Shown: piece by piece, positions 27,964 to 47,013 of the stretch
Layout of the letters: the number at the start of each line of letters is the position of its first letter
How positions within the stretch are numbered: the first letter of the stretch is position 1
DNA from: Symbiodinium sp. CCMP2592
Taxonomy: Eukaryota; Sar; Dinophyceae; Suessiales; Symbiodiniaceae
NCBI GenBank assembly: GCA_905221615.1
Contig: CAJNDT010003179.1
Coordinates: forward strand, 274,501 to 338,500
Length of the DNA stretch: 64,000 nucleotides
Reading direction: 5' to 3'
Made by a program: the position numbers and the translations under genes
The notes under the pieces: model-generated
The model's input: only the letters and a program-made list of their open reading frames with translations
Databases searched by the model: none
What the model was told of the DNA's origin: nothing

Positions 27964-30900
27964 CGAGAGAGAGGGTCTTTGCTGCCTGGCGTTCCCGAAA
28001 GTGGCCCTACCGGGGGAACATGTGCAAGCGAGCCCTGCGGGGGATGTGGTAGCCACAGGGGCGCGGAGATGAGGCCGGGACCCAGGTGGTTTAGTGTTAA
28101 GGGCGGGGCTCGCTGCATGAAAACCCGGGGCACACTCTGTAGTTCCCTGCCACACTCAGGATGAACCCCAAAGCCGACCGCTCACTAACACAGTGGGTGG
28201 GTTGGGCGGGCCGATGGCCTGAGGGTCTTGACGACCCCTAAGCCCAGCAGAAAGAAAAAAAAGAGAGGGTCTTGGGAACTCCTGTCTGATGCCGTTGTAT
28301 TTTTACTGGTGGTGCATCGTCTTCAGAGTGTGGGATTTGAAGCTTGGTCGTTAGTGCATTGGTTTCAAGCTTCAGGGTTGGCACAGGTGTGGTCACGGAG
28401 CTCGAACAAGAAGCAGCTAAAAACCCTCCTCAAAGCCTAAATCCTCAAGGCGTCTATTTTGAATCGTCACTGAGGTGCCGGGTTGTGCCCTCTTTGCCGC
28501 GGCCCCATCAAAAAGTCGGAGCTCTTGGAGAAGCCTGCTGCTTCTCGGCTTAAGTAAGGCGCCAGTTAAGGGGTCAGGGGTTTCGGGCAGTTTCGGGTTT
28601 TAATAGTATTACCTGCGGCAGTAATAGGCTTCTTCGCAATCGAAAAGGGTTCAAACGGGGTCTTTCATTGTCTACAGGGGTGCACTGCACTTTGGGATTT
28701 GCGGAGTTGTTCGTGAAGGCTCATGGACAGCTGAGTCGGCTTGATTGTCGCACAGCTTGGCTATGGCGTCAGTTGCGTATCTTCCGTTTTCTACACGGGT
28801 ACCTGTTGTCAGCCAAGACGAAGCATTGAAGCTTGACTACTTCACATTCACAAGTGGTCACTAATGAGCATAGTGACTGCTCCTTTGCTGTCCCCATGTT
28901 CCCCTGCTCTCCCCATGTACGCGGACACACCGACAGACAGACACACATACACACCCGCGAGTATGTACGTCCTGCTTAGGTCTTGTCATCGGGTTAGAGC
29001 CCTGCCTTCTGTCGGCACTCCTTTCTTGAGGCCCCTCCAGTTTTGAACAGATGCTCTAGGGCCCCAAAGTTTACGAGTCGAAGTTGGTACTGAATTCCAT
29101 TCGGGTGTTCCCGAAGGAGGGTTCAGGGAGAAGTCTCAGAATTGGCGACTGCTTCGTGGCATGTGGCATTGATGCAAACAGCTTCGGGATCCTCTCCACT
29201 CGTTGGTGTATGGTACGTCCTAAACTGTTAGCTGGGTATCGCGCAGCCGCAGGCATTCGCAACTGTTGTGCGACGGTTGATGATATAAATCCTGCATGAC
29301 CCATTATAAGGAATATGCCATAATTCCCATAGTTTCGGGTCCTTAAGGTAGTGCAGGATTTTTATCATCAACAGGATCAGTCTCTCAGGCTCCTCCCATC
29401 AGGATGCAGGCTACCCTGGTTTTGCTAAGGAATACCGCCATTGATTCAGAGACTTGTTGGTTCTATCTTCGGGTGGAGCTCTGCGTAGACATGTTGAGAA
29501 AGACGACGTTACCCCAACCCATATCTAGTGATAAGATATCTTTCGACATGCTTAGGGTGTCTGGGCCGTTACTTCTTACTCCCGACGGGGGAGCACAGAA
29601 CCTGCTCCTTCAAGTAGGGCCTTGTATTCAGCGGAGGCAGCACAGTGTCAAATCTCTGACAGGGCCTCCGGCCCTGCCCTTTGAATATGGGAGATTCCGA
29701 AGGTTAGGGGTACCTCATTTTGGGGTCCTTATAATAAGGATCCTACTACTTAGGGTACTATATTGGGGTCCCCTGTTTGCGGAAACTCCCATACTGAAAT
29801 AAGGATTAGGAGATGTTAAACGTACACTGGTTTAACCCTGTTGAGAGCCGCCTTCAAATCTGTCGGTATGGAGCTCCTTCGTCCTTAACCGGCCATCAAC
29901 TGGCCGTTAAGCGTTTGAGTCGGAGAGTATGAGGGTCGATTAAAGGAACAATAAGACTTCGCCCTGAAGTCCTTTGCGCGTCCCCGCGAAGTAGGAAGCA
30001 AAGAGAAGCACAAAGGAGCTGGAGGTGGTAGAGGGAGACGACGGCAGCGATATCCATGCGGGCGCAAGCGCCAAGATCAAGGTCTGGAGAGGGTTTCCTT
30101 TAAGGGCCAAGTTCAGGGATTCATCAAAACATATTGGGGGTTCAGGGTTTAGGGTTCAGGGGTTGGGGAGTGTTTGCTGGCACAATCCAAGTCCATGCTG
30201 AAAAAAAGGTGTTCAGCGAAGCATAATAGGGGTGTAGGGTTTAGGGATTCATCAGAGCATAATAGAGGGTTAGGGGTTTTGGGCTTGGGTTGAGGGCAGT
30301 AGCTTTGACACTGGGGTTCGTTTTGGACCCGATGGAAATATGGGTGTTGGTAGGTTTCAGGGGCTAGAACATTTTGTGTTGTTTAGGATTTCTGGTGGTC
30401 CGACCCGAACTGTTCAATTTCAACCGCTTTAAAGAAGAATCCGCGTGTCTTGTTAAAGTCTTAGTGGAGGCTCTTTGGCATGATTGAGTCCTGATGGATG
30501 TGCTTTTGCAAGTTCCTGTAGCCGGCTTGGAGTTTAGGGCACGGGCAGATGCCGTGTGGTTCCATGTGCCTCATATGGGGGCATTGATGAATATTCTGAA
30601 CTGACTACCCCTCGTATTTTAACTTGCCACGGACCAGCATGTATGGACGGCCTGTGGAACACGAACAATACAGTAGAAGCTGGCGAACTAAGGAGGCGGA
30701 ATGAGCTCTGCATGACATTTGGGATCAGGATGCAACAAGTACTACGATTGAGCACGAATTTTCACGAAGGTTAAGCTAGAACATTGTGCTCGCATGAGCA
30801 TGCGCGACTCACAGGTTAGATCTAGATGCCGTCGCCGTGCACGTTATCACCCTCGTGCCACGAATACCTTGTGGGGAACCGAAACGAAGTTCCTGTAGGA

Positions 30901-33900
30901 CCTGGAAACTTCATCACGAACCCCCTGTTCCAAGTCTCCGGGCTCCATATATGACACCGTGCCGCAATCGCAAAGGTGTCCTGCAAAGACTGACGCTGTT
31001 CTTAGAAGAACAGGTTTAGGACTTTGAGTTTGGCAGTGTTCCTAGTGACCTAGTGTTGGGATTTTGGAGGTTTAGGCTTTAGGGTATTCTGCAACTGAAA
31101 GGCTGTGCTGGCCTTTTTGGTGGAGAACGTCTTCAACAAGTCGCTTGGCAGCTGCCGAAATCTTCATCTCACTGACACGTCGAGTCATGTTTTCTTCAGA
31201 AAAGGGTAGCCTCGAAAGCTATGGCTTGGCAATCATAGTCAGTGTAGCTACAGCAACTGCACGGAATAGGGAAGGTAACTGCAATATTCATCCTGGAAGG
31301 GAACGTGTCACCTTGCCAAGGATTTTGGTCAAGTTGCACTGCATCTTTTACTTTTCCACTACCACCACCCCCCCCCCCCCCCAGGTTGTTTTTAAATGCC
31401 TGGGTCAAGACGGAACCATCAAGCTTTCAAAACCGGCCGGGCTAGAGGTTCCCGGCTTGCGGTTCGCATAGGTTTGAAGGTTTAAGGCGCAAGGGTGCGA
31501 CGTTTGTGTCCTGCAGGCAGCGCAGAGTTCCCCGTCTCCTAAGCCCAATGGTTTCTGCGTCCATGCAGTCGGGTCCCAAACCGTGACTAGAACTTGAGGG
31601 GCCTGGCTACTTAGACTTGGTCTTGGGTTTTCATCATACTTACAAAGGGAGTATAAACGGGAATTCTCCCCACGATCAGGCCGCTATGGCACCCAAGGGC
31701 TTGATCCAGAATTCCTTGGCATACCTGAGCCAGGGGCCTGCTTACTTCTGTGCTTTCCTATTTCTAGGTTTGAGCGTATGGGGAGCGAAGGATGTGGGTA
31801 GCTGCAGATTCTTTTCGGTGGGCTCATGACATGAAGCGACCAAACCCGAACCCACAGCTTATCCCCCCAAGCTTAAGCCTCAACCTAAGAGCCCTCAACC
31901 CAGCATCAACTCGCACCTGCCACCCTCAGACCCTGAACCCTAAAGCTTTCCTTGCTAAGTAGGAGGGAAACAACCCCAAACCTAAATCCTAAACCCTGAA
32001 CCCTAAACTGCCCCAAACCGGACGGAAAAAGGTGCTCAAAAAAAAAACTGCCCCAAACCCTGAATTGAGCCTAAACGATCAGGAGCGACGAGCACCTTCA
32101 AAAGCCGCACAAGGCTTGGACAAGGGCTGTTAGCACCGGCGCACAGGTGTTTAGGGTTGATAGGCTTGGGTGTTATAGTCCTGAACCTAGAACCCTAAAC
32201 CCTAAACTTCTTCTACTGGCTGCTGCCTCTTGGGAACAAGGAGCTCAAAACAAAACTTTGAAGACGTTCGGGGGCTTTATGGACGGGGTGCTACGGTTGA
32301 TGATATAAATCCTGCATGACCCATAATAAGGAATCTACCATAATTCCCATAATTGAGGGTCATTAAGGTAATGCAGGATTTATATCATCAACCGTAGTGC
32401 TAAAGGGTTTGGCTGATGTTGGGTGTCTCTCGGAACCGTAGCTCCAAAGCTGCCAACTCTCGTCTTGGCACTACAGGGGGCCTTAGGAATTACCTGTACT
32501 ATTTTTTGGTGGGTTTCTTAATGATACTACGTTCTAGTATAATATACGCGAAGACCCTGTTCTAAGTAGTAAGGCCCTGTATTATGACTTTCTCTTGGTA
32601 GTGACAAGGCCGTGTGCCATCGACACTGTGCATCGACACGTCCGCATCGCAGGTTTCCATCGGTTTGAGCCTGCAGCCCTAACGCTTGAAGTAGTAATGG
32701 AAACTGTTGTAGAAGTTAAAACAGCAGCAGGGATAAGGAGAAGCATGCCAGAGGTGCAGCAGGACTTATATGTATAGCAGCAGTCATGGCGGGTTAAACT
32801 GCTACGGCCCCTCCTGCTCAGCAAGCCTCAAGCCCCAAATCCGTGCTTTTCATGTAGACGCCCACTATTGCTTCATATGATTCCTCCAGCGTTCCAACTC
32901 GTACAAAAGAATAAAGGTACCGCAATCCCGTTTTGTGTTAAAAGGCCCGAGTACTGGTGTTCATTATGGCATGTCGTGAGAAGCTCGGTGTGACATGCAG
33001 CTGGAGTCTGGAGATTAGCCTGGGAAGGTCTATCACTTTGAACCCTCTTATTCGTGGCTTAGACCCCAAGCCTGAACTTAAACTCTAATTCTGTATTCCC
33101 CACACAGGTGCGTCTATGGCAATGACAAGATACCAAAACCCAGAGGGCTTAGGATTTCGGCCCGTAGAAGTCCTGTTTCAGTGTTTCAGGATCAACCTGA
33201 TTTCTTGTACAAGACCTTGCGGAGACATTTGTGGAGAGCGCAATGTAGAGTTCCGACTCCAGACTGTGGAAGACTGTGCTGGTGGAGTTTGCTTCAGCAG
33301 TACTTGTTGCCAAGCCCTAGATGTGGATGTAAAGGCTCCTCAGTGCTTACAGGTCTGCCGTGACTTCAACTCACGGTCCACTCTAATCTACACCCGGAGA
33401 TGCAAACCTGAGCACCCAACCTGCAGCGCAATCCAGGCCGTGGTGTTCTCCCAGTTCACCAACATGCTGAACCTGGTGCAAGCAGCGCCTTGCATAGAGC
33501 AGAGAAGCAGTGATGCCCCAAACTGCTACAGTAGCCAGAGGGTATGGCCATGCAAGCCTCAACACATCAATGTTGCTTCCCTTTGCATCCCTCTCCCTCT
33601 CTCTCTCTCTCTGTCTCTCTGTCTCTCTCTGTCTGTGTCCCTCTCACTGCTTGCATGCACGCAGTTGTGGATATAATCAAGCATGTAAGAAGGTATGTAA
33701 TGTATGTATGTACGTCTGTATGTATGTACATACGTACATACATAAATACATGCATACATGCATATATACAAACACATGCACACACCCACCGCTTAAACTT
33801 AAACCTTGGTCTCTGTATGTGCTTTGCAGGTTTTTGCCCTGTAGTCATAACGTATAGAGTCTCCCAGGATGTGGATTCGGAACACCCCCAATCTACAAAA

Positions 33901-36602
33901 GCTTGATACACCATGCAAATCCTCGCGAAAGCCTCACGAAGGTTCGACTCACGATATAAACCCTATTAAAGCCAATAAAGCCCGTCAAAGAGACTTCAAC
34001 AGCTTAGGAGCTCCTCCGGCGGAATTTGCCTTTCGTCCGCTTAGACGGCTCCCTGAAGCACGAGCAGCGAGTACAGGCCCATGGTTTAGGCTGTTGTGAG
34101 TTTGCGTAATGTTGGGGCCTGTATATGTAGAATAGGGTTTCGGGGTTTCCTTATTATAAGTATACTACAATATGTCCGCGAACTCTGTTCTATTCATTCT
34201 AGTATATAGGGTTTAGGAACAGAGTTGAGGTCTGTCGGCCTGCAGGGTTTAGTGCTTCTCTAGCTTCTTTATGAATTTCGGGACTCTTATCTAAAGTTAA
34301 AGCCGTGTAGTAAACATCAGCCGCAGTTTGCGATGCATGATGCGCCAAACTGGGCAAACCCTACATCTCAGACCTTCCGAAAGCGGGCCGTTATTTGCGA
34401 GGAAACTCCAGACGCTCCCCCACAAGACACCGAAAGGAGCAGGGCTTCAGCTGGGCTGCAACGCCTTATGATTCTTAAGGCTGTTCTATTTCCTAACCAT
34501 CAACACCTCCTTCGGACAACTTCCATGTTGGTTCAGACTTTTCCCACAGCCTTGACACAATCAGGCGCAGCAGAGCTTCGCGGGGCATGGGCATATTCAG
34601 GCTGGCAATCTGAGAAGTGTGTACAGGGGCTGCGCTGACCAAGCAGCATGTGGGTGGTTGTCAAAATTATGGGCCCTTTCTGGGTCCCTTATATAGTACG
34701 GCACATACTATTTAGGGTACCCAAAAGAGGACCATAACTTTGACAACCACCCATGTGCTTGATGTGCAAAGGGTATTCTGTGTGTTGCTTGAATCCGGGC
34801 CTGGTTTTAGGGTTCTGGTTTAGAGTTGGGAGTTTCCGAAATAGGGGACCCTAGTATAGTACCCTAACTAGTAGGGCCCTTATTTTAAGGACTCAATAAG
34901 GTACCCCCCCCCCCCCGATTTTCGGAAACTCCCAGTTGGAGCCTTGGAATGAAGTGCCAAGCAGGTGACTTCATTCATTGTCGCTGCAGGCCTCTAGCCA
35001 ACCCTCTTCATGCTTGCCGATGGTTAAGCCGCCAAGTGCAAGGGGGGCGATATGGTTTGAAAGTAGTGGTACTTGTTTGTTGTTGTCCGTCCCAAGAAAG
35101 TCTGCTGAACTGTGTCAATGAAGCCGAGCTGGCTAAAAACCCATGGATCAAAAAGCAAAGCCGGTTGAACAACCTAAACCCTAAACCCTAAGCCTAAACC
35201 CCTACTCCTTATCTCGTGACTTTCCGGGTTCAGTAGGCATGCATTGCCCAATCCCTACTTGGAAGGTCGACTCATAAGTACCATAACACCAATTCGGATC
35301 CCTTTTAGGGTACTTATAACTCTACTTATTACCTATTACTTACTAAGTCCCCCGACCCTCCAAGTAGACCCAGGGAGCCTTCCGCTGAATTCCAGAGCCC
35401 GCATAGGTCATGCTATGCAGCCTTAAGGCGGCTGGCACAGGTCTGGGCGGTGTTTAGGGTTTAGAGTCGGGATCTTCTTCATGGATTGGGGCTTTGTGCG
35501 ATGAGGTTGCATTTCTGGTTCAATCTGCTGGTGACTGAGTGTTTGACAGCAGAGTCTTTTCTGGCGTGGCGGCTTTGTCTGCATCTGGGCTGAAGGATAC
35601 CCGAGCACCGAGGCATAAAGAGCGATTCTGCGTTGCAGGATGTCGGAGCGGTTCGGGAAGCATTTCTCGTCGTTACTGTAGTAGTTTGTCGCCTGCGGCT
35701 CTCTTCATCAAGCCCAGAAGTACTATAGGGGCCTTAATAGTTACCTATACTATTCTGGGGGTTCCTTATTCTAGTTATAGTATGATGGGCCCCAAACCCA
35801 AGGCCCCTATATTAGGCCTGAGCCAGAGCCCATTTTTACAGAGGCAAACAGCGTCAGCCGATCGATTTCGAGTGTGTCCTCACAGGTTCCCGACTCCTTC
35901 AGGAGCGTTCTTCGGCTTTTTTCTTTTCCACGGCGAGCACAATTTGACAGATATGCTGGATTTCACATCCTAAAGCTCCGGAGAACGTGGAATACAGTCT
36001 CGATGGATGTCTACTTACAGTGTAGGAGACCAAGCATATACTAATGCACGACGGTGGGTGCTATGCCCAAACACGTAAATAGTAACCACAAGAGCTTGCC
36101 TGATGGAATGTAGTGCTTTCGCTTCGATCCGGGTGAGTGTTTCACAGAAGCATGCACGAGGCAAACTCTTAAAGAAATGGCCTGCGAACGGGAGCTGGGA
36201 AAGCTCCAAATGAGTGGTCGCAAGGTCTGTTTCTCTTTCTACAAGGCCGCCATATCAAGCCTCGAGACGAAGCGCCCTACTGTCGGAAAACGCAGGATTG
36301 AATCTCACGGCCGCAGACTTCGTACTTCTAATCGACCCGCGCCACGGCTGAAAGCTTCGAGGTCTCACTCAGCTGCTTGATGGGGTTCCGGTTTTTGAAT
36401 TTTGGGTATGTGGACTTGCTGAGCAGGGCTTGGATGTTCGGGAATCGCATGGCTGTAACCGACACCACTCCCTCTCGCAAGTCCTCGATTCCACCGCGTG
36501 TCTTTAACCAGCAGTGTGTCGGAACTGTAGAGCGGTTCGGAACCTACTTGCAGATTTTTGTGCTGCAAGGTAGTGTTGCTGCGGTGTTTGGGGCCCTTTA
36601 TG

Positions 36603-36637
<35 letters not shown>

Positions 36638-37813
36638 ATATGTATATATGTGTGTGTGTGTGTTGTGTGTGTTTGCGTGTGTATCTGAAAAAGGCGTATG
36701 TATGTACAAGTTATGCTGCGTGCAGGTATACATCCACACACCCACTCGCACGCACAGACCGTCGTACATACATGCACGAAGACAATGTCAAACCTGCAGG
36801 TACAGCGCAAATGCACACATACACGCATACATACATTACATGCATGCATGCACACATGCATACGTGCGTACATGCATACATATGCTTGCATACAGACAGA
36901 CGGACGGAGCGACGCGCGGTTTGGCATTCGATTGTTTACATCTGGTGGTTTTACTACTGGGATTCACAGACACATGTTCCATGGATGACTTGAGCAGAAT
37001 CCCTTCGCGGGTTGCAGTCTCTTCAGGTTCCCTCCTCCACACAATTCTAAACCATTCGGCTCCCAATGCCCGATTCCTTGAACCTTTAAGCCATGCATCA
37101 ACAAACCCTTACAGTAAGCCCAGGACTCGACACCCTCCGAACAGCGCGAAAACCAGTGAAGTAAACCCTAAGCGCTGAGCTCGAATCGGTGTGCCAATAC
37201 TGCCTACATCGTTCAGGAATGCACATGAAGTCAGAACAACTTCCCTCTGTGGGAACCACTCCCCGAATCCTGTCTGGTTTCCATGCCAGGTCGTGCGAAT
37301 GACAAGACTTGCTGGGGTTCATGTAATCTTTTGCGTCCTGCTACATAACTCCAGTAACACATACCTCAGTCGGACAGCGAGTCAGATTTTGCATGCTTCG
37401 CCCCAATGCCAAGTTAAGCCCAGTAAATACCAGTCGCCCGAGGTGGTGGAATCCTGCCGTGGAGGAGCGTGCCAGAATCATTGGGAACCTGGTTGAGGGT
37501 GCGCGATTTCGGGGGATTTGCGTTGCCAGCACAATCTCGATCTACTGTGGGCAAACAGTGAGTAGGTCAGCATTGGTCAGAGCTTAAGCAGTGGTGTCTT
37601 GAATTCTCGGAAGCTCTAGCCACGGCTATTTATCTATGTGGTCTATGATAAGAGCATAAGAAAAACAAACTATAATAGTACAGCATAACCCTACATGTAT
37701 ATGTACATATGTATATATATATATATATATATGCATATATATATATATATATATGCATATATATATATATGCATATATATGTATAGCCGAAATATATACA
37801 CATATTTATATAC

Positions 37814-37849
<36 letters not shown>

Positions 37850-40800
37850 ACATATATATATATACACATAAATACAAACATAGGTATGTATATATTGTAC
37901 CCCCCAATGGATCTACCATATTGTGGCTGGGTGAACCCCACCACACGAAAACAAAGCTATTTGAGGCGGTGGGTACTGACCTGCTTTTTTGTGGCTGGGT
38001 GAACACCCCAAGGATCCGTGGTAGAGGCCTCGGCCCCGGTACAAATCGGTACCCGGTGTCCAAGATTCCAAGATCCAAGACTGCTGCGGAGCCTTTTCTT
38101 GGCATCTTGGATACCGGAACCTGGTCCGGTACAAACCGGTACAAGTTGCACCGGCCTGGGCTCTGGTATCCAAGATTTCCAAGAAAAGACTCCGCAGCAG
38201 TCTTGGATCTTGGAATCTTGGATCCGCTCTGTACCCGCTGTGCCGGTTTTAACTTGGCCAGGGCCCATATCCAACATCTAGTAACTTTGAAGCATCTAGA
38301 CTGTAATGGTAGGAGATGAACTGGAATAAGAGGTTGATAAAAAGTTCTATGTGTGATATCTGAGTCCTTTGTTCCTGCTTTAGGTTTTGTTTTGTTATAC
38401 ATGTTTGAATGGAAGCCAAGAAAGGAACACACTGAGTAAATGCAAGCTTTATTCTTTTCATTAGACGAACACCACTGGAACCCTAACAGAGCTAACTGGT
38501 TTGTAACGAAACAGATGAACATGCGTTTCTCTTTCGCTTGTTCCATTCCAACTCATGTTCTTAATTTGGTAGAAACTATCGCCTGTGTAATTTTATCTAT
38601 AATGAAGTAAACAGGCATACACTTTGTTACCGTGCTTTGTTTCATTGAACTAAACACAAAAGCGAACCCTACTTTACACATAATTCATCATCGTGCTCTT
38701 TCATAATTCAGTCCTTGAACCTAGAATGTTGCTCGATAAAGGATAACTGTCGCTTTCTTCATGCCTTCCTTACTCTTATTTTAATTGAACAAAGGGCCAC
38801 ATGACAAATCTCAAGACCAAAAGATACACATGAAAAGCAAACACACCAATGAAACAAAGAAATGGAGTGAAGAAAAGGCACGTTTTGTTTCATTGTGCTA
38901 TTCTCTTTTCAGCTTGCTCTGCCCTCTTCTGTTGACTCCCTTTCTTCGTCGTTTCCACTTTTCGTTGATAGAATTATGACACAGAATATCTGGTCGTTTC
39001 TCTTAAATTTACGCCCCTCATTTTTCGCAACAATCAGACCACGCATACGCTTCATTTCATTCTACTCCATTGTGTCATCCTTTAAATAAAACAGGGCATC
39101 AGTTGTGATCCCGTTCACGTGCGTTTTGCTTGAACAAACCAAATATTCACTTCTGTTTCCTTCGTCTGTTGTTAGTTGTCGAAGCAAAATACACACTCAC
39201 TACAAACCTGGAGCTGTGTTTAACTGAAAGGAACACGCATCACACTCGGTTTCGCTTGTCTCTCCTTCATTGAACTACATCCCATCAGAAGCTTTCCATC
39301 TCCACGTCCACTCCTTGTTTTGAGTCATCTTCGTTCGTTCGTTCTGTTGCGCTCGCTACCTGAGCACACTTGACTCTGTGACACCGTGCTAAGTTATCAC
39401 GCACATAGGCTATATACAACAGGACTCACTTCAAGGATTTCTAAAGGGTAAATCCTTCATGAACGACTCCTGGTTCCGTTCCTGTTGTTCACAGGCGTTT
39501 TCGCTTAAAGCACGCATTGATTTCTCCGTTTATATTGACGACAAAGGTCAACGAAAAACCGTCTTCATATGATTAACCTCTAGGCCTAGATACGTAGAAG
39601 CAGAAACAGAGCATAAGGGACAAACAGGAACGAACAAGTGACGGAGCGAAATCACCCATACAATGTAATGTTAAACATAGGTCATACGATGTGCCATTAA
39701 AAAGAGGGCCCTTGTCACTCGGCTATGTGCCCTTTGACCGCGCATATACGCGTTGTTTCCTTGCATTAAGTTCGAAATTTAAAGGCACCGCGCGCAAGGT
39801 CAAGAAATCGAAGAGCAGAGCGTGCGATTGTTTCTCTTCAATTGCCGCTTTTCGCTTCTTGAGTTTATGTTGGGTCTTTTGTCGTTTGCCAAGAATCCAT
39901 CCCACCCGCCATTCTTGTTTCCGTCGGTTTAAGTGCAATAAATGCGGAATCACGCGTGTTCAACCTTTCGCATTCTCACCAGCTCTTATGCTGAAATGAA
40001 CTTAGTTATATATATATATATGTATACAGAGGGAGGGAGATGTATATATCTAGAACTTACCTGGTTACTGAATCGGATAATTAGCCATGGAATGAGTCAG
40101 TAAGTCTTCCTGTTAATATGTGAGTTTAACATATACATATACACACATGTTCCTTAGCTTCAGCTGTGCGAGCTGTGGAAGTTGAAGCAGTAGAGCGCCA
40201 TAGAGTACTGCTCAACTTGACTTGCCTGTGCCAGAGAGCTGGTTTGTGCCTGGCGCATCAACTGTTCAGAACTCGAAGTTCGTGTGGTCGTGGACGCTGT
40301 TTGTGTCAGGCTCAAGGACGATGCAGTAGGAAGTATTTGGTTCTTTGGGCATCATCCCATATAGCAGCAACGTGTCAAGGCATGTGACGTTATGTTCTGT
40401 AGTAGGGACACCATCCACAAGGGACAGCCAGACGTAGGTGCAAAGGCACATATATTTGCTCGTCCGAGCCATGGGTGCCTCGTTGTGCCACCCAGCTTGT
40501 GGGGAAGGCGAAGATGCCGTACTGATGCAAGTACCTGCATGTACCTCCGTGTTTCGCCGAATAAGTATTCGTGGTGTAGACGTTCAGTCCACCGTACATG
40601 AATGTCGGTATCCTCTATGGGCCGTCAAAGTCTCGGACTTCATGCGGATGAGCGGCAAACCTGAAGCCCATAGCATTTTGCTGGCGCGGGGTTTGCTATA
40701 CAAGTGGTTCCCAGGCATGTTCCTGATCTTCGTCTCGCACCAGTGGTTGAGCAAAGAACATCCGGACCCCGACGGAAAGCAAATGGAAGTTCTTCAGAAG

Positions 40801-43800
40801 GCAATCCGGGGAGTCATCGGTGGCTCACTTCAGGTGCACGAGGACATAGCTTGCCGCACCGCAGACAACAGCATCTCAGCAAGTACACGCCAGCAGATTG
40901 CCGATGGCTATATCTTTCTCGACTGGTTCGCAATCCCGCAAATTACCGTGCGAGAGGCAGGGGTGAATGAAGAGACAACGAAGACGGATGCAGCTTTGGC
41001 GGTTCAAAGCATTCCAGCCTATGTCGAGCTCTCCAACATGTTCATCGCGTTGGTCCCCGAGCTGACTCACAAAGACTCAAGGCTGTTGGCGAATTACTCA
41101 ACGTGGCTTTCCCGAGGGTGGCTGGGTCTCTGTTTAGCGGCATTTTCAGAGCATAGAATTTGGGGCTCACAGCGTTTAGGGGGAAGTCTTAACGGAAACT
41201 TGATCCTACACCCGCCCCTACGGCTGCTTTTTTACCGGCTGTCAGATAAAACACTAAGGTGGTGTCGCGCTGAACTGTGGTGCCGCTTATTGTCAAACAA
41301 AACCGACACCACGGTCATCGTCGTCTACTCAAACGTGCAGGCCGAGTTCATGTACCCGTTAGATTGGCAGAGCAACAGCATCTCAGAACACTGTTCAGCA
41401 CGCTTGGGGGTTAAGGATGCAAAAGGCTTTCGGATTGTATCTTGGGATTTTTTGTTTAAAGGTTTCTTGTTTTGACACTGGGAGAACCACCCGTTTTCAC
41501 CACATTCCAGCAGCAGGTACTATTAGTAGTTAGAAGTAGTGGTCGTCCAAATATGGGCAAGAGACAGTCGAGGAGCAGGTGACTAGGAGTAGGATGACTA
41601 AGACTAGGACTATAACAAGTAATTACTTGTAGTAGTGGCGGTGGTGGTAGCAGCAGCCGTAGCAGTAGCAGCAGCAGCAGCAGCAGGAGTAGTAGTAGTA
41701 GTAGTAGTAGTAGTAGCAGTAGTAGTTGTACTTGTAGAAGCTGCAGCAGAAGCGTGGCAGTGGTCGTAGTGGTGGTGGTAGTAGCCGTAGTAGCAGCAGC
41801 AGGAGTAGTAGTAGTAGTAGTAGTAGTAGCAGCAGTCGTGGTGGTGATGGCGGGGGTGGTGGTGGTGATAGTGGTAGTGGTATCAGTAGTAATAGTCGTC
41901 GTGGTGCTACTACTGCTACTACTGCTGCTACTACTACTACTACTACTTCTACTACAGCTACTACGACTAATTGCAGGGTCGGGGGATTCAGTAAGATGTT
42001 ACCTTGTAGAGTTGTGAGTATCATGGTGGTGGTGGTGGTCGGGTGGTGGTGGTGGTGGTGGTGGTGGTGGTGGTGGTGGTGGTGGTGGTGGTGGTGGTGG
42101 TGGTGGTGGTGGTGGTGGTGGTGGTGGTTTTGGTGTTGGTTTTGTTGTGTTTTGTTGTTGGTGGTGGTGATTGCACGTGTGTCTGCCACCACGCGGGGTG
42201 GAGCGATTTCAGGGCTGTCATGTGCTGAAACTCGAGTTTTGGCACGTTCCTCGCCCGGAATTGAATTTGCGAATTTGCTGTGTTTTATCATAAGAATTGT
42301 GTACAAAATTAAGCTGAGCTCTCCATTTCGCAGCGATTTTTGCAGACTCTCGAGTTTTTGCACATGCCAGCTTAGACTTCCGTTCGTATTTCAGCTCCGT
42401 GCAGGGGTGGGGGGCGATGGGGATGGGGGGCGATGACGTCCATGTGAATGCGGATTCTGTGTTGTGTTTCTTGTGTTGCTTCCTACATTGGGGGGAGGTC
42501 CGGGGGGTGATGATGTCCATGCAAATGTGGATTCTGTGTTGCGTTTCTTTTCGGTAACAATGAACACGACAATGTTGCTCCCTGTTGCCGTTCTTGCCCG
42601 TTGTTGTTACCTGACAGTTGAAACGTCACCAATACAAAAACACTCGTCTTTTCCAGGCTTTCTAGGTATAACCTTCGCAACTGAGCCCAGCAATCTACAC
42701 AAACAAGGACGATCAGATCAGCATGGTATTTGCCAAACCAAAACACTAGGGGAAGAACAAGCTGCGAAACATCATCTTGTTCACGAATCCCACACAAAAT
42801 TTGAGGTTTCCAGGCTTTTGACCAAGAACCTCCAAAAAAGAAACGACACATCCCGCAAGGCTGCCTACTCACCTGCCACCCTTGTTGTTCTTGCTGTTGT
42901 TGTTGTTGTTGGTGTTGTTGTGGTTGTTGGTGGTGGTGAGTCGTGGCGGCGGCGGCGGCGGTGGTGGAGGTGTTGTTGGTTTGCTGGGTTGCTAGCAGTG
43001 GTGGGTCTGGTGTTGCTGCTGGGGTTGGTGTTGTCGTCGCCCTGCTGCTGCCGCTGCAGTTGCGGTCGTTGTTGCACCTGTAGTTTGACGTACTGTAGTT
43101 GGAGTCGCCATCGTCGGCCTCGCACCCATCCTCACCATCTGCATCAGAAGACAAGAATCATTACTATTGAGCCCAAGAACCATAGCATCCTAAAAAACTG
43201 GGACGGCCAAGGCATCGCCAAAGGCGAGTTCACAGTGGAATCAGATTGCGCTCAGGCAGTCGAGTTGTCCCAAATGGCCTTGGAGAAGAAGATTCAGCAC
43301 CTTCAAAAACGGGGTCCTTTGAGTCACCACCGTTTCTACACGGCCTTGTGGTTGAAACTCCACGGGACGCAGGGCAGGGATCTCCAGAGCTTCTTATCGC
43401 ACTTCGGCTTCGACGGCTTGCAGGACGCCGCCCGAGATAAGGCAAGCATGAATGCCTTGATGTGCGCCATTTTCTCCGACGACGCGGGCATGGTTCGCCT
43501 GCTTGCGGAAAGTCGTGCAGACACGAATCATGTGCTCACTGGCTTGACGGAACTGGGGTACTATGACTCTCAGACGGCACTTATGGCAGCTATGAAATCA
43601 ATGCAAGGACCAGATGTCTTGACAGCATTGATCGAGCATCGTGCAGAGGTCAATAAGAAGGATCGGTTGGGCCTGCCGCCCCTTTACATGAGTCGCACGC
43701 CAGAGCATGTGAAAGTGTTGCTGGACAACCGGGCCGAAATGCCACCTTTCGTGTTGGAAGGTCCGGCGGCTTTCGGTAACCCGGAGACAGTTCAGGCACT

Positions 43801-44990
43801 TCTTGCCTACCGTTGCAATCCAAGCGAAGATCCCCGGGCTAGCCCATTGCACGCGCTTTCCCTGCTCTCGAGGGGGAATCGGACAGTGCTCGAGACTGCC
43901 AAGCTCTTGTTGACGAACCGAGCCGATGTGAATGCACGTGCGGCACGGCCAAGCGACAACACCATGTGGCAGTATCATTCGGCCCGTGCTCAGGTGGCCA
44001 TCCTTGGCTTTACTCGCTGCAGCATGATGACCCGCTTGCAGGCCATCGCCCCGGGCATTTCGCCTCTGGGCTATGCCGCCTTGGTAGGGCATGAGCAGCT
44101 TGTGAGACTCTACTTGGAACATGGGGCAGAGTCATACCCCAACGATGGAGGAGATCTGCCTGAGGATTTGGCGCGGAGTAATCACCACTATCACCTTGTG
44201 CCCTTACTGGCTACCTTCGCCACGTAGATGCCAAAGAGCAGCCGGCCTCATCTATTGCGACGAAAATTCCGTCGGATAAGTACATTTAAATAAATGTTTG
44301 CATTCTCCGCTTTTCGCAGCACCTTGGCGCCTAGAAAAAAAGAAGTGCCCATACTGCAGTGGATTCGCCGACGCTTTGTCTGAAGTGTATGGAGGCTAGG
44401 TCATTGATGCGCTCTCTGCGCTGGGCATCGTGCTCGATTATATACATTTGATCAAGATTCGCAAGCAAACATCCGAGCAAGATGCTGCCAGGACCATGCA
44501 CGCATCCGAAGACTTTCGAAGTCACCAGTTGCTGATTACAGCGTACTCGCTGATGGTATCTGGTTCCAGATCGCTGGTAGGTCGATGGCCGGGTGGTCAT
44601 CTTCTTACAGTAGTTGTTTTCTGTGGTCGAGTAGGAAACCGTTAATCGATTTAGGTCCTATGGTCTGTTCCCCTTCTTCTCATTATTGTTAGCCTCAAAC
44701 GTCATTGGGCCATAATGGGCTGTTGCGAGGACCAGGCCATCGACCGACTCCACCGCTTGGGCCAACGTCGCCCTGTGCGTGCCCTCCGCTTCGTTGCCGA
44801 GCGAACAGTGGAGGAGCTGACCGTGTCTCCGGGTTTAGGAGTTTAAATCTTAGGGTTTGGGGATGTTAAGGGTTGCCAGGAATTAGGGCTGCTGGCACAC
44901 AGTCCAAGTCCATGCTGAAACAAAAAAGGGATTTAGAGTTTAAGGGTTTCCATCTGTGTCCTGCAACCGGGCTTGACGTTTCGAATGCCT

Positions 44991-45982: not shown

Positions 45983-47013
45983 GTATAAACTGCATATACG
46001 AGCACTCGCACACTCACGCACGTACATCGACACATTTATGTCCGCAGTTTGTAGTGTTCATATACGCCTGTATTCTCAACATAAGATCTTGAGTATAGCA
46101 TGCGACGTCAGAATACTCCGGGTCACCAAAACTCATACAAAAGACGACTCGCAAACGCACACCGCCCTCACGTCCTATTCTGTATTCATACATCTCTATA
46201 GCTGTATTATTACCTATGCACCCATCTACTCGAAAATGTTTGTCTATACATGTATCCACTTGTAGTTACTTTGCAGATACCTGCACACGCAGATATGTAA
46301 ATTTGTTTACGGGTATAGATGTGGGTTATGTGCGGAACAGTGGAAGCACTATTAGCAGGAGCGTATCCTGGATGTGCAGAAGCAGAAGCGGGCCATTGTT
46401 GAAGGAGCTCTTTCCAAGAAGTCTCGCAGCTCTGCATGGTTTTCGGCTCTAGCTAGGGGCTTTGGCTTCCGGTGGGGTTTCGGTGTCGTGTTATGAAACA
46501 GTTCCCTTAATGAAGCTCCCAGGAAGCCAGACATGCTAAATCCTGAGTGAACCTGAACCGAGTCTCTCACGCTACTACAGGGGCTTAAATAATTGCCTGT
46601 AACTATTTTGGGGGTTCCTTGTTGTATTTATAGTATAATGGCCCCCAGACCCTATTCCATTTATTAAGGCCCATATAGTAATCTCTTTGTTGTTGCCACC
46701 TTTCCCTGGGAGTCTGGGTACGTAGTTAGAAGTAATGTTATCCCCTCATGCCGTTATACTCCTCCTATGACACGACGACCGAGCCAAAGAGGACTTCAAG
46801 CGCTACTCCAAATTCATGTTCAGGCCCTTAAACATACATCGATATATACATATATACGAAGATGTATGTATGTATGTGTGCATATGTATATGTGTATGTG
46901 TTCATATGTGTATGGACATACACACACATAGGCAGACCGGGGGATTTTGGCTGATGACTCCGAGGCGACGAGATTCAGAAGATCCGCTTGGAGATGATGG
47001 CTTCCATCTTTGA
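11690..47013 (+). CDS. RAD5/RAD16/HLTF-type SNF2 helicase with embedded RING finger (conserved part of a split gene)
   Basis: Phase-compatible exons spread over about 35 kb spell the diagnostic order of a RAD5/RAD16/HLTF protein. SNF2 lobe 1 carries [12 protein letters not shown] (Walker A), [17 protein letters not shown] (Walker B) and CLTGTPIQN, followed by LRRTKD and LLVRLRQ. A RING finger comes next, then lobe 2 with [36 protein letters not shown] and HRLGQRRPV. Known relatives are nuclear, ATP-driven DNA translocases whose RING acts as an E3 ligase in PCNA polyubiquitination and replication-stress tolerance; that role is inferred here from family membership. Inferred introns use mostly GC donors, several GA and a few GT. 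At least three short pieces could not be placed: after the YHGPDR exon, after FDWFN, and the lobe-2 segment normally containing Lys-Ala-Gly-Gly. The gene may be intact with missed exons or slightly decayed. A separate gene lies inside the intron 37465-44729. The frame closes with TGA at 47011-47013. Confidence 0.85.
11802..11875. repeat. (CT)n then (TA)n microsatellite
   Basis: It starts 20 bp after the Walker A exon's GC donor, inside the intron. Confidence 0.95.
12033..12134. mobile_element. Family C inverted-repeat element (diverged)
   Basis: AGAGGCCAGAATAATTA at the left and TAATTATTAAGGCCCCTACA at the right, in the intron after Walker A. Confidence 0.6.
12227..12338. mobile_element. Family C inverted-repeat element
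   Basis: ACTATAGAGGCCTCAATA at the left and TCTTAAGGCCGTTATA at the right. It is a second copy in the same intron. Confidence 0.6.
12562..12635 (+). CDS. SNF2 exon completing Walker A ([11 protein letters not shown])
   Basis: It begins after gcggag and reads (K)[16 protein letters not shown] then RAAAGKSPG. It ends CCA G before a GC donor (GCCGGG), phase 1. The next exon restores Gly-Lys. A family-B hairpin element begins 28 bp downstream, inside the intron. Confidence 0.88.
12664..12772. mobile_element. Family B inverted-repeat element, 4-bp target duplication
   Basis: GGGAGTTTCCGAAAATTAGG at the left and TTTTCGGAAATTCCC at the right, flanked by ATTT on both sides. It lies 28 bp after the SNF2 exon ending at 12635. 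Confidence 0.8.
13117..13175. mobile_element. Short inverted repeat (GTAGTTCCTTTTTGGG ends)
   Basis: A 16-bp perfect inverted repeat around a 27-bp centre, 33 bp before the SNF2 exon at 13208. Confidence 0.65.
13208..13292 (+). CDS. SNF2 exon with motif Ia ([11 protein letters not shown])
   Basis: After the acceptor ttcag the frame reads [17 protein letters not shown] then [10 protein letters not shown], the typical motif Ia of SNF2 ATPases. A GA donor (GACTCG) gives phase 2, joining exactly to the next exon as V-R-T-Y-H-G. Confidence 0.9.
13609..13663 (+). CDS. SNF2 exon (YHGPDRDR)
   Basis: It reads [18 protein letters not shown], the 'YHGPxR ... xxxD' segment between motifs Ia and II in RAD5/HLTF proteins. 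It starts at AG|G after a 316-bp GA-AG intron and ends at a GT donor. The following short piece, expected to resemble VVLTTY, could not be placed in 13,664-14,641. Confidence 0.85.
14642..14689 (+). CDS. SNF2 exon with DEAH box (motif II, Walker B)
   Basis: After ctttag the frame reads [20 protein letters not shown] is the Mg/ATP-hydrolysis motif. The exon ends at a GT donor (GTGGCC) in phase 0. Confidence 0.9.
14943..15017. mobile_element. Family D element, 5'-truncated
   Basis: It starts inside the element (AATAAGGAATATACAATAAT) and has a complete right end (GCAGGATTTTTATCATCAAC). The left inverted repeat is missing. Confidence 0.7.
15380..15412 (+). CDS. SNF2 mini-exon ([11 protein letters not shown])
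   Basis: This 33-nt exon after caacag reads [11 protein letters not shown] and corresponds to 'IKN..(S/T)..A' just after the DEAH box. It ends at a GC donor. A family-B hairpin begins 26 bp downstream. Confidence 0.82.
15439..15540. mobile_element. Family B inverted-repeat element
   Basis: GGGAGTTTCCGAAAATTAGG at the left and TTGCGGAAAGTCCC at the right, 26 bp after SNF2 exon 15380-15412. The duplication is imperfect. Confidence 0.8.
15668..15775. repeat. Three tandem copies of a 35-37-bp AT-rich unit
   Basis: The unit contains TATAAACTATATCATAATAT followed by CTTGTTAG; the three copies differ by a few bases. Confidence 0.8.
16182..16250 (+). CDS. SNF2 exon with motif III (LTGTPIQN)
   Basis: After cctcag it reads [20 protein letters not shown] then SVE. 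It ends before a GC donor (GCTCCG) in phase 0, so the next exon continues directly with DLFS, the expected sequence. Confidence 0.93.
16656..16720 (+). CDS. SNF2 exon ([20 protein letters not shown])
   Basis: After gctgag the frame gives [20 protein letters not shown] then N, a hallmark of the segment after motif III. The most likely end is a GA donor after AACAG. About nine residues expected before the next exon are not located. Confidence 0.9.
17032..17169. mobile_element. Family A inverted-repeat element (copy 2)
   Basis: CTTGGAGGGTCGGGAGTCTT at the left pairs with AAGTCCCCCGACCCTCCAAG at the right. The interior has GTAAGTACCCC and GGTACTTGTAAG. Confidence 0.75.
17243..17332. mobile_element. 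Family E inverted-repeat element
   Basis: AAAGTTGGAATATAATTATC at the left and ATATTCCAACTTTCTGGAGT at the right. Confidence 0.68.
17693..17803. mobile_element. Family C inverted-repeat element
   Basis: TACTATAGTGGGGCCT at the left and AGGCCCCTATAGTACT at the right are almost perfect complements. It is one of the best-preserved copies. Confidence 0.75.
18572..18676. mobile_element. Unique inverted-repeat element (GGGTCCATGTA ends)
   Basis: CTAAGGGTCCATGTATCC at the left and AGGTACATGGACCCTCAGGG at the right; TATA-rich interior. Only one copy was seen. Confidence 0.6.
18899..19018. mobile_element. Unique inverted-repeat element (CCCAGACCCCCGGGAGGATC ends)
   Basis: The 20-bp left end and GATCCTCCCGGGGGTCTGGG at the right are perfect complements. 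It ends 22 bp upstream of SNF2 exon 19041-19106. Confidence 0.75.
19041..19106 (+). CDS. SNF2 exon (LRRTKD region)
   Basis: It reads [20 protein letters not shown] then DC, matching the 'RLQxLL...LRRTK' signature. It is bounded by gcgaag and a GC donor (GCAAGC). A 120-bp inverted-repeat element ends 22 bp upstream of the acceptor. Confidence 0.9.
19341..19512. repeat. Compound TTTAGGG array
   Basis: TTTAGGG/TTCAGGG units alternate with GCCGTTTAGG-like spacers, giving about a 31-bp higher-order unit in three to four copies. It resembles dinoflagellate telomere repeat but is interstitial. Confidence 0.75.
20184..20261 (+). CDS. SNF2 exon ([19 protein letters not shown])
   Basis: After ttcag it reads DAETGLS then [19 protein letters not shown], matching the 'LPPKxxE' strand after LRRTK in SNF2 proteins. 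A GT donor follows; the exon is phase 0 to phase 0. Confidence 0.82.
20744..20862. repeat. (ATT)n/(AGT)n trinucleotide repeat
   Basis: Interrupted TTA and TAG triplets; it encodes poly-Leu or poly-Asn frames that are not genes. Confidence 0.92.
21080..21114 (+). CDS. Weak exon candidate ([13 protein letters not shown])
   Basis: A short charged helix, [13 protein letters not shown], lies where SNF2 proteins have 'S..ER..Y..L'. Splice limits are not resolved, and it is supported only by position and composition. Confidence 0.3.
21699..21908 (+). CDS. Possible acidic exon (Asp/Glu/Ala-rich)
   Basis: After the acceptor agccag, 70 codons stay open with marked Asp/Glu/Ala/Gly content, for example [18 protein letters not shown] and [18 protein letters not shown], up to a TAA at 21912. 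It may encode an acidic loop inserted in the SNF2 protein, or be a decayed GATGGT-type microsatellite that happens to be open. Confidence 0.35.
22706..22749 (+). CDS. SNF2 exon (LLVRLRQ)
   Basis: It reads [14 protein letters not shown] plus a split Gln codon, matching 'LLLRLRQxCCHP'. A GC donor follows CA (GCAGCT). The next exon begins with G, restoring Gln, then LCCASSLL. The 5' limit is uncertain by a few bases. Confidence 0.85.
23469..23562. mobile_element. Family C inverted-repeat element
   Basis: AATGTAGGGGCATGTTGGGG at the left and ATTAAGGCCCCTACATTA at the right. It ends 16 bp before the SNF2 exon at 23579. Confidence 0.65.
23579..23629 (+). CDS. SNF2 exon ([16 protein letters not shown])
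   Basis: After gccccag it reads (Q)[16 protein letters not shown] and ends CG before a GC donor (GCAAGG). It corresponds to 'CCHPxLL'; the His-Pro pair is Ala-Ser here. A family-C inverted repeat ends about 17 bp before the acceptor. Confidence 0.8.
24361..24750. repeat. Minisatellite, about 35-42-bp units
   Basis: About nine to ten diverged copies of a unit like GATCCCTTAAAGGACCCC followed by TTGAAGGAGCCCCTATA. It stops about 20 bp before the acceptor of SNF2 exon 24770. Confidence 0.8.
24770..24824 (+). CDS. SNF2 linker exon ([18 protein letters not shown])
   Basis: After ctgaag it reads (R)[18 protein letters not shown], a helix leading into the RING. A GT donor follows; the exon is phase 2 to phase 0, consistent with both neighbours. 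A minisatellite ends about 20 bp upstream of the acceptor. Confidence 0.75.
25798..25903. mobile_element. Family C inverted-repeat element
   Basis: GGGGGCCTTAATAATGACC at the left and ATTATGAAGGCCCCTATA at the right, 57 bp before RING exon 1. Confidence 0.7.
25961..26006 (+). CDS. RING exon 1 ([15 protein letters not shown])
   Basis: After ggaag it reads [15 protein letters not shown] plus the first base of a Cys codon, then a GC donor (GCCTCC). Joined to the exon at 26429 it gives EDDCSICMES, the first Cys-x2-Cys of the RING. An unspliced reading would destroy that pair. Confidence 0.8.
26429..26490 (+). CDS. RING exon 2 (CSICMES...TRCGHVFHR)
   Basis: After gccgag it completes Cys and reads [20 protein letters not shown]. 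It supplies the second Cys of the first zinc pair plus Cys-x-His-x2-His. A GC donor follows in phase 0. Confidence 0.87.
26788..26888. mobile_element. Family B inverted-repeat element, 4-bp target duplication
   Basis: GGGAGTTTCCGAAAAT at the left and TTTTCGGAAAGTCCC at the right. AAAT is duplicated exactly at both flanks. Confidence 0.82.
27176..27285. mobile_element. Inverted-repeat element (TAGGTTCCTGAGTA ends)
   Basis: TAGGTTCCTGAGTACTAACC at the left and TACTCAGGAACCTA at the right. Related sequence occurs near 19200-19260, 26036-26137 and 59270-59475, where TIRs are less clear. Confidence 0.6.
27601..27637 (+). CDS. RING exon 3 ([12 protein letters not shown])
   Basis: After accaag it reads [12 protein letters not shown] plus a split Gly. 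The Cys lies two residues after the His of the previous exon (H-R-G-C), completing the middle zinc ligands. The exon ends G|GAAGTG, a GA donor. Confidence 0.8.
27822..27974. repeat. Dispersed unit plus (GA)n, copy 1
   Basis: The phrase CCATCTGTGTCCTGCAACCG continues GGCTTGACGTTTCGAATGCC then TGG and a long GA run. The same phrase plus GA occurs at 44950-45058. Confidence 0.88.
28475..28520 (+). CDS. RING exon 4 ([11 protein letters not shown])
   Basis: After ctgag it reads (G)[15 protein letters not shown], the last Cys-x2-Cys pair, of the CPLCRxxI type found in RAD5/HLTF RINGs. The 3' limit is ambiguous: a GA donor after TCG (28508) or slightly later. The next exon starts with the same GAGCT sequence. 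Confidence 0.85.
29276..29372. mobile_element. Family D inverted-repeat element
   Basis: GTTGATGATATAAATCCTGC at the left and GCAGGATTTTTATCATCAAC at the right. No target duplication is visible. Confidence 0.78.
29689..29790. mobile_element. Family B inverted-repeat element
   Basis: GGGAGATTCCGAAGGTTAGG at the left and TTGCGGAAACTCCC at the right. The interior, with TCCTTATAATAAGGATCC, is as in other copies. Confidence 0.8.
30016..30081 (+). CDS. SNF2 lobe-2 entry exon (ASAKIK)
   Basis: It reads [20 protein letters not shown] then IK, ending at a GT donor (GTCTGG). 'SSKI' just before lobe 2 is characteristic of RAD5/RAD16/HLTF; here it is ASAKIK. Confidence 0.82.
31102..31140 (+). CDS. SNF2 lobe-2 exon ([13 protein letters not shown])
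   Basis: After ctgaaag it reads [13 protein letters not shown], the helix after SSKI. The 3' end is uncertain: a GT donor after AACAA (31139) would join in phase to a start at 33428 just before AVVFSQF; other donors are possible a few bases on. Confidence 0.7.
32290..32400. mobile_element. Family D inverted-repeat element, extended palindromic ends
   Basis: CTACGGTTGATGATATAAAT at the left and TTTATATCATCAACCGTAGT at the right; the complementarity extends beyond the GTTGATG core. Confidence 0.78.
32474..32584. mobile_element. Family C inverted-repeat element
   Basis: ACAGGGGGCCTTAGGAATTA at the left and AGTAGTAAGGCCCTGTA at the right. Confidence 0.65.
33437..33481 (+). CDS. SNF2 lobe-2 exon ([15 protein letters not shown])
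   Basis: It reads [15 protein letters not shown], the motif IV region of SNF2 lobe 2, and ends at a GC donor (GCAGCG). The exon may start at 33428, a few codons upstream (AIQ). Confidence 0.92.
33590..33785. repeat. (CT)n and TATG/TACA tetranucleotide repeats
   Basis: A CT-rich run, then GTATGTATGTAC-type repeats in the intron after VVFSQF. Confidence 0.9.
34008..34076 (+). CDS. SNF2 lobe-2 exon (FVRLDGS)
   Basis: After cttag it reads [20 protein letters not shown] then RVQ, the 'RLDGSxxxxxR' motif. The donor is GC (GCCCAT); the exon is phase 0 to phase 0, joining LVQ directly to ELL. Confidence 0.92.
34647..34757. mobile_element. Family K inverted-repeat element
   Basis: CATGTGGGTGGTTGTCAAAA at the left and TTTGACAACCACCCATGTG at the right. 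A second copy's left end reaches the window end. Confidence 0.75.
34828..34933. mobile_element. Family B inverted-repeat element, reverse orientation, 4-bp target duplication
   Basis: GGGAGTTTCCGAAATAGGGG at the left and GATTTTCGGAAACTCCC at the right. AGTT is duplicated exactly. It contains a run of C. Confidence 0.82.
35256..35366. mobile_element. Family A inverted-repeat element (copy 3)
   Basis: TACTTGGAAGGTCGACT at the left and AGTCCCCCGACCCTCCAAGTA at the right. It shares the interior GGATCCCTTTTAGGGTACTT with copy 4. Confidence 0.7.
35639..35677 (+). CDS. Possible SNF2 lobe-2 exon (DVGAVREAF)
   Basis: After gttgcag the frame reads [13 protein letters not shown], a plausible continuation of 'QRVxA..xxF', ending at a GT donor in phase 0. 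The following segment with the expected Lys-Ala-Gly-Gly motif was not identified with confidence. Confidence 0.45.
35722..35814. mobile_element. Family C inverted-repeat element
   Basis: TACTATAGGGGCCTTAATAG at the left and AAGGCCCCTATA at the right, with the interior GGGCCCCAAACCC. It follows the possible exon 35639-35677. Confidence 0.72.
36296..36338 (+). CDS. SNF2 lobe-2 exon with motif V ([15 protein letters not shown])
   Basis: After acgcag it reads (G)[14 protein letters not shown], motif V. It ends GAC CC before a GC donor, phase 2; the next exon begins G TGG TGG, restoring P-W-W. Confidence 0.93.
36601..36890. repeat. TA/TG and CATG-rich microsatellites
   Basis: TA and TG runs, then ATGCATGCATGCACACATGC-type repeats, in the intron between motif V and WWNPAVE. 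Confidence 0.9.
37443..37464 (+). CDS. SNF2 micro-exon (WWNPAVE)
   Basis: This 22-nt exon after gcccgag encodes (P)WWNPAVE, the sequence between motifs V and VI. A GA donor (GAGCGT) is needed; the next coding piece, DQAIDRLHR, is 7.3 kb away beyond the nested gene. Confidence 0.88.
37696..37885. repeat. Long interrupted (TA)n
   Basis: TA runs are broken by GCATAT and CATATTT; they produce poly-Tyr/Ile frames that are not genes. Confidence 0.92.
38059..38222. repeat. Long inverted repeat (about 52-bp arms, about 59-bp loop)
   Basis: Arms 38059-38110 and 38170-38222 are near-perfect reverse complements, sharing the core AAGACTGCTGCGGAG and its complement. The loop carries shorter GGTACCGG-like repeats, as does the 5' flank (GGTACAAATCGGTACC). 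It lies in the large SNF2 intron. Confidence 0.85.
38290..40160. other. AT-rich island without telomere-like motifs
   Basis: About 1.9 kb differs from the rest of the window. It is A+T-richer, has almost no CCCTAAA/TTTAGGG and none of the inverted-repeat families. Recurrent phrases such as TTTCATTGAAC and GAACAAA occur. The longest frame (39691-39999, 102 codons) has no recognisable domain. It may be the upstream region of the nested gene or part of an insertion. Confidence 0.5.
40588..41117 (+). CDS. Nested gene exon 1 (FVSHQW domain)
   Basis: A possible acceptor is cgttcag. The frame gives [40 protein letters not shown] and [14 protein letters not shown], ending NYSTWLSRG at a GT donor. 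The frame extends upstream to 40438, but that part lacks the same character. Confidence 0.7.
40588..44227 (+). CDS. Nested FVSHQW-domain and ankyrin-repeat protein gene (joined 40588-41117, 41259-41377, 43212-44227)
   Basis: This gene sits on the same strand inside an intron of the SNF2 gene. Exon 1 has a hydrophobic core [10 protein letters not shown], then [12 protein letters not shown] and [20 protein letters not shown]. Exon 2 gives [13 protein letters not shown] and [11 protein letters not shown]. Exon 3 begins [12 protein letters not shown] and holds ankyrin-like repeats ([64 protein letters not shown]), ending LLATFAT and TAG. The 'SHxW ... DxxxxPQ ... W.R.WCRxE' pattern with C-terminal ankyrins resembles a protein type I associate with Symbiodinium genomes; its biochemical role is unknown to me, perhaps signalling or protein interaction. 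Introns: 41118-41258 (GT-AG, 141 bp, no stop codon) and 41378-43211 (GC-AG). The 5' end is unsettled: the frame is open back to an ATG at 40438, and further upstream exons are possible. Confidence 0.75.
41259..41377 (+). CDS. Nested gene exon 2 ([13 protein letters not shown])
   Basis: After cactaag it reads [20 protein letters not shown] and then [11 protein letters not shown]. The split Ser codon at a GC donor (GCATCT) is completed by the GC that opens exon 3. Confidence 0.72.
41378..43211 (+). repeat. Nested-gene intron 2 packed with trinucleotide repeats
   Basis: The inferred GC-AG intron contains interrupted GTA/GCA/GTC-type repeats (about 41630-41985), an almost pure GTG run (42023-42128, about 35 units) and GTT/GGT runs (42890-42990). 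These generate long spurious frames on both strands (poly-Trp, poly-Val, poly-His, poly-Thr). Confidence 0.8.
42023..42128. repeat. (GTG)n, about 35 units
   Basis: Nearly pure GTG in intron 2 of the nested gene, with one GTC interruption at the start. Confidence 0.95.
43212..44227 (+). CDS. Nested gene exon 3 (ankyrin repeats, C terminus)
   Basis: After gccaag it reads (S)[18 protein letters not shown] and is open for 338 codons to TAG at 44225. Several degenerate 33-residue ankyrin-type units carry 'A.....G....V..LL...A..N'. The open frame continues upstream to 42464, but that part is microsatellite translation and is not counted as coding. Confidence 0.85.
44730..44813 (+). CDS. SNF2 lobe-2 exon with motif VI (HRLGQRRPV)
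   Basis: After ttgcgag it reads [20 protein letters not shown] then FVAERTVE. Motif VI provides the arginine finger. It ends at a GA donor (GAGCTG), phase 0, and the next exon starts ERIL. Confidence 0.93.
44950..45058. repeat. Dispersed unit plus (GA)n, copy 2
   Basis: It is identical over the 43 bp before the GA run to copy 1; the sequences after the GA runs differ. Confidence 0.88.
45879..45981. repeat. (GA)n ... (CT)n inverted microsatellite
   Basis: A GA run and a CT run in opposite complement flank 24 bp, followed by TA, so the two arms can pair as a hairpin. Confidence 0.9.
46359..46425 (+). CDS. SNF2 C-terminal exon ([20 protein letters not shown])
   Basis: After ttagcag it reads [20 protein letters not shown] then KS, the 'E.IL.LQ.KK' brace helix that follows motif VI. 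A GC donor (GCAGCT) leaves phase 1. Confidence 0.9.
46574..46683. mobile_element. Family C inverted-repeat element
   Basis: TACTACAGGGGCTTAAATAA at the left and TTATTAAGGCCCATATAGTA at the right, in the intron before the penultimate SNF2 exon. Confidence 0.72.
46784..46823 (+). CDS. SNF2 C-terminal exon ([12 protein letters not shown])
   Basis: After gaccgag it reads (P)[12 protein letters not shown] and ends AG before a GC donor. Phase 1 to phase 2 fits both neighbours. A family-C inverted repeat lies about 100 bp upstream. Confidence 0.65.
46965..47013 (+). CDS. Last SNF2 exon and stop ([15 protein letters not shown])
   Basis: After actccgag, phase 2 continues as [16 protein letters not shown] followed by TGA. 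An alternative frame reads [18 protein letters not shown] and ends TAG at 47022; it would need a different upstream donor. The phase-consistent reading is preferred. Confidence 0.6.

Follow-up and report, generated by a model that had tools for sequence, protein, structure and literature searches.

Can a complete gene lie on the same strand inside an intron of another, unrelated gene, and if so, how did it arrive there and how might its message be made? A locus of the dinoflagellate Symbiodinium sp. CCMP2592 raises this question, in that an intron of a SNF2 gene appears to hold a second gene encoding an FVSHQW domain and ankyrin repeats. We analysed a window of 64,000 nucleotides (the whole stretch of DNA under study, C3179:274501-338500) and searched the genome to which it belongs, which comprises 1,098,105,373 bases in 5,383 contigs. 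We hold with high confidence that a complete FVSHQW-ankyrin gene is nested in parallel in an intron of an unrelated SNF2 gene; most likely, it arrived at the level of DNA, and it would give its own mRNA while the host removes the intron in the ordinary way. Both gene models, host and nested, derive solely from homology.

The host gene and its long intron

The host is modelled as a Rad5/HLTF-like SNF2 gene on the + strand, running from a motif I exon to a QERIL exon (11747-46421; the outer limits are those of homology). Searches by tblastn with the helicase parts of yeast Rad5 and human HLTF gave 17 collinear pieces in the correct order on the + strand from 11747 to 46356, including motif I at 11747, motif II at 14642, LTGTP at 16194, RING-like pieces at 26431 and 28486, FSQF at 33431, motif V at 36274 and 37444, motif VI at 44727 and the tail at 46356. 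The list of matches was long, covered both strands and was weak for the most part; the 17 pieces were selected from it by eye, and their best E-values ranged from 0.003 to 44, with one exception at E 2e-6 (the two RING pieces reached 0.34 and 5.1). Because the matches are individually weak, the evidence for the host lies in the order of the pieces and not in single E-values. The host resembles SNF2 ATPases of the Rad5/HLTF type in its motif order and, if the two weak RING-like pieces are real, may also have a RING between the helicase lobes; it differs from them in its small exons, which are spread over about 35 kb.

The C-terminal part of the model is further supported by unbroken splicing. 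The last five host exons join into 82 residues without a break and in consistent phase, across introns of 855, 1,104, 7,265 and 1,545 bp, whose donors are GT, GC, GA and GA. Among them, an exon of 15 residues begins motif V (36296-36338, + strand, joints GT-AG before and GC-AG after) and is followed by the WWNPAVE exon of motif V (37443-37464, + strand, phase-consistent joints), the motif VI exon ending in RTVE (44730-44813, + strand) and the QERIL exon of 21 residues (46359-46421, + strand), the last two placed by tblastn pieces and splicing. The residues WWNPAVE are encoded by just 22 nt. Across 37465-44729 (7,265 bp, + strand, GA-AG), the exons carrying motif V (WWNPAVE) and motif VI (DQAIDRLHR) join at VE|DQ with zero residues gained or lost and with an AG|G acceptor. 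The joined motif V-VI peptide matched Rad5 (6l8n), its closest PDB entry, at E 3.3e-10.

An earlier note on this DNA had placed a 7.3-kb intron between these two motifs, and its coordinates proved right. The note had also allowed that the SNF2 exons on either side might belong to different genes, which is contradicted by the residue-exact continuity and by an apparently single-copy locus: the C-terminal half of the host gave 13 matches in the genome, two of them to its own locus (83% and 88% identity) and the other 11 at 27-55%. The VE|DQ position was unbroken in all seven other SNF2 matches read, out of the 11 non-self matches, so SNF2 genes of this genome do not in general carry the intron. 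All six introns checked in the host and nested genes have an AG|G acceptor (donors GT, GC, GA, GA, GT and GC). These donors and acceptors point to a dinoflagellate, in agreement with the splice table of PMC10666404, in which GA donors make up 17.4-23.8% in five of the seven species tabulated and AGG acceptors 79.7-97.1% in six of the seven.

The nested FVSHQW-ankyrin gene

The coding part of the nested gene (40471-44227) lies wholly within 37465-44729 on the same strand, with every host and nested exon on +, as the earlier note had proposed. Its three exons encode 593 amino acids closed by one stop, comprising the FVSHQW domain and then ankyrin repeats. Exon 1 (40471-41117, + strand) holds the start methionine and the FVSHQW domain; it is separated by intron 1 (41118-41258, 141 bp, GT-AG, + strand) from exon 2 (41259-41377, WCRAELWC...DWQSN, + strand), and this in turn by intron 2 (41378-43211, 1,834 bp, GC-AG, + strand) from exon 3 (43212-44227, + strand), which carries the ankyrin repeats and the stop. 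The spliced protein matched the Pfam ankyrin models at up to E 3.8e-16. Intron 1 is open in frame, so that a naive ORF call takes it in and would add 47 residues if it were left unspliced. Around exon 1 and exon 3 the reading frame stays open for at most 313 and 355 codons, the first of these runs including the in-frame intron 1; when each region was shuffled 500 times at first order, the longest runs reached 266 and 325 codons. Intron 2 is rich in three-base repeats, and GCATC forms the first five bases of both intron 2 and exon 3, as a target-site duplication might leave.

The model was compared with the gene's relatives in the same genome. The family is large and partly tandem. Counted exon by exon and with the gene's own exons included, it has at least 83 genome matches, several each on C1450, C4950 and C4557; no relatives were found in viral contigs. 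The spliced protein was aligned to 21 of 66 fetched loci; it aligns with paralogs over its length, and the best-matching stretches reach about 51-63% identity. Ten alignments, representing nine distinct paralogs (L038 and L045 show one and the same), cross both splice joints (codons 216 and 256) without a gap at the joint, and single-residue gaps occur near the joints in L042, L050, L051, L052, L059 and L063. Because the stretch matched in L038 contains stop codons, this locus was excluded from alignment A1. The start of the protein resembles MGNRACSPACG in L061 and MGSALCRPAG upstream in L044. These paralogs back the frame, both joints and the start methionine of the model and, together with its own start and stop, indicate a protein-coding gene independent of the host, which bears out the claim of a separate gene that joins FVSHQW to ankyrin repeats and has introns and a stop of its own. 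About 20 N-terminal residues after the start have no counterpart in L044 or L061; they could hide another small intron, and the exon 1 model may be incomplete in this respect.

Identities to L044 at first, second and third codon positions were 0.73, 0.79 and 0.36. Third positions are thus far less conserved than first and second, pointing to a family protein under long constraint; this contrast reflects the history of the family and is not a proof that the nested copy works today.

Pfam, read to E 1 with the unspliced nested frame, had no match for the FVSHQW domain, and a PDB sequence search with the first 272 residues of the spliced protein, read to E 10, likewise gave none. A whole-family profile matched 431 PDB sequences (E up to 0.01), of which the 60 listed are matched in the ankyrin part. 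HET was matched weakly in two of nine family members (best E 0.013), and a single-sequence fold of the unspliced frame had a mean pLDDT of 32. The family alignment is invariant at S89, H90, W92 and a WC..E stretch. These residues are reminiscent of TIR and HET folds, and a TIR/HET-like role would be a matter of resemblance only.

Origin of the nested gene

A reading that we consider improbable is that the nested copy is silent or decaying: it would have come in recently together with other inserted DNA, and splicing would simply remove it with the rest of the intron. A dispersed repeat adjoins the gene at about 37844-40000 (no strand assigned). It is low in G+C and about 2.1 kb long, part of it matches other copies in reverse, and copies at 65-78% identity lie on at least four other contigs (C5377, C2258, C4423 and C5095). 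All four are missing among the contigs listed for the nested family, and the repeat therefore does not appear to travel with it. The intron is also poor in a telomere-like heptamer that is common elsewhere in the window. TTTAGGG/CCCTAAA occurs 118 times there (68 + 50), compared with a mean of 6.4 for TTTAGGG in ten second-order shuffles of the window, and at a mean of 0.68 per kb in the 66 fetched loci, some of which overlap. The 7,265-bp intron holds one copy, where about 15 would be expected from the rest of the window, and this copy is the only one between 35453 and 45097; under uniform placement, a gap as long as 35453-41175 arose in 31 of 20,000 trials. This gap was noticed post hoc in a clustered heptamer, and the poor stretch starts about 2 kb before an intron that is itself partly coding, so the scarcity is no more than suggestive of inserted DNA over much of the intron. 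The unmatched N-terminal residues could likewise be taken as a sign of decay. Against this reading, no stop interrupts the 593-residue frame, and its match to paralogs extends over the full length, with about 51-63% identity where it is best; it is therefore not a recent, near-identical copy that simply had no time to decay.

In the most likely history, the nested gene was duplicated at the level of DNA and retained an old family intron. The position of intron 1 (SRG|WCRAEL) is common to the nested gene, L023 and L044, and L046 and L049 break close by. At the position of intron 2, L023 is unbroken and L044 breaks elsewhere, while the copy on C5037 (L049, L065) breaks within a few residues of it. 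The shared position of intron 1 favours a DNA-level copy over a reverse-transcribed mRNA, although it could also reflect parallel gain of the intron. Retroposition of leader-capped mRNAs has been described in dinoflagellates (PMC7245778), and several paralogs are unbroken over both nested joints, as a retrocopy history might leave them. The retained family intron nevertheless disfavours retrogene status, as does the lack of a DinoSL or relic in the window (0 matches to the full leader with up to three mismatches or to its last 12 bases with up to one), and we regard a retrocopy as highly improbable. The missing leader neither supports nor denies the dinoflagellate reading itself.

We give very little weight to an assembly artefact, in which an ankyrin gene was wrongly joined into the SNF2 intron. 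No longer intron was found in the host, and this one is rich in simple repeats, features that could invite such an error, but the window contains no N letters, the exact nested sequence occurs at just one place in the genome, and residue-exact host exons flank the nested gene on the same strand and in order. That the SNF2 gene uses the FVSHQW-ankyrin exons as alternative exons of its own is scarcely credible: they share its strand and lie within its intron, but they have their own start methionine, resembled in paralogs, and their own stop, and family members elsewhere in the genome have none of these SNF2 exons matched beside them.

We also scanned large introns of the host for further genes. 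Pfam showed no second nested gene at E up to 0.01 in 16725-26430 (both strands, all frames), 28537-33430 (- strand, all frames) and 37466-40470 (five of six frames), nor at E up to 1 in 30001-36000 (+ strand, three frames) and 36001-39000 (two + frames); these scans did not pick up the short SNF2 exons, and genes with small exons would escape them. Two matches from the intron scans were rejected as below cut-off, namely Sporozoite_P67 (E 0.00031, 19.5 bits against a cut-off of 28.9) and DUF765 (E 0.12). An 81-residue frame 3' of the nested gene (44400-44645) had itself as its sole genome match at E up to 1 (residues 3-62 matched), and the window had no Rfam match at gathering scores.

Expression of host and nested genes

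Under the preferred reading of a DNA-level arrival, the host would splice out all 7.3 kb like any other GA-AG intron, at a joint that we place from protein continuity and not from cDNA. The nested gene would most likely be expressed as its own mRNA, with its 5' end at an AG upstream of 40471, probably through DinoSL trans-splicing, and with cleavage within the host intron forming its 3' end. Should the nested gene lack a start site of its own, one primary transcript could yield either the host or the nested mRNA but not both.

A further reading would make the two mRNAs alternative fates of one primary transcript. Leader trans-splicing and cleavage within the intron would release the ankyrin mRNA and spoil the SNF2 message, and the choice of splice would couple an ankyrin-family protein to an ATPase of the DNA-repair type. 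We put this forward tentatively and think it unlikely to hold. In principle, leader trans-splicing could part two genes from one transcript, and this clean and checkable same-strand pair would be a good test case for such leader-based separation of nested genes.

Comparison with known nested genes

The earlier note implied that the nesting is surprising, an impression not supported by a published dinoflagellate genome. In two isolates of the dinoflagellate Polarella glacialis, 4,898 (8.4%) and 3,359 (6.5%) genes lie within introns, and full-length transcripts back the nested structure (PMC7245778). As here, these are whole genes within introns of multi-exon genes, a likeness drawn for nesting and not for strand. 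Its gene-combining step, as described there, sought intronic genes only in introns above 10,000 bp. A 7.3-kb case like the present pair might be missed by that pipeline, and nested genes in introns below the limit may be under-counted. The locus is a sound new example of an already known arrangement and is not novel in kind. We found no paper on this gene pair in the literature on nesting, introners, spliced leaders and Effrenium, and the word 'nested' was not found in the main text of a review of dinoflagellate genomics (PMC11453091) or of the Effrenium genome paper (PMC11114475).

Nesting is also found in animals with spliced leaders. In a glass sponge that uses a leader, nested genes make up 12.4% (PMC10282587). 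The ctenophore Hormiphora californensis combines same-strand nesting with trans-spliced leaders, as proposed here, and 1,109 of its 2,357 nested genes have transposable elements next to them on one side or both (PMC8527503). It differs from the present locus in being an animal, with other genes and another leader.
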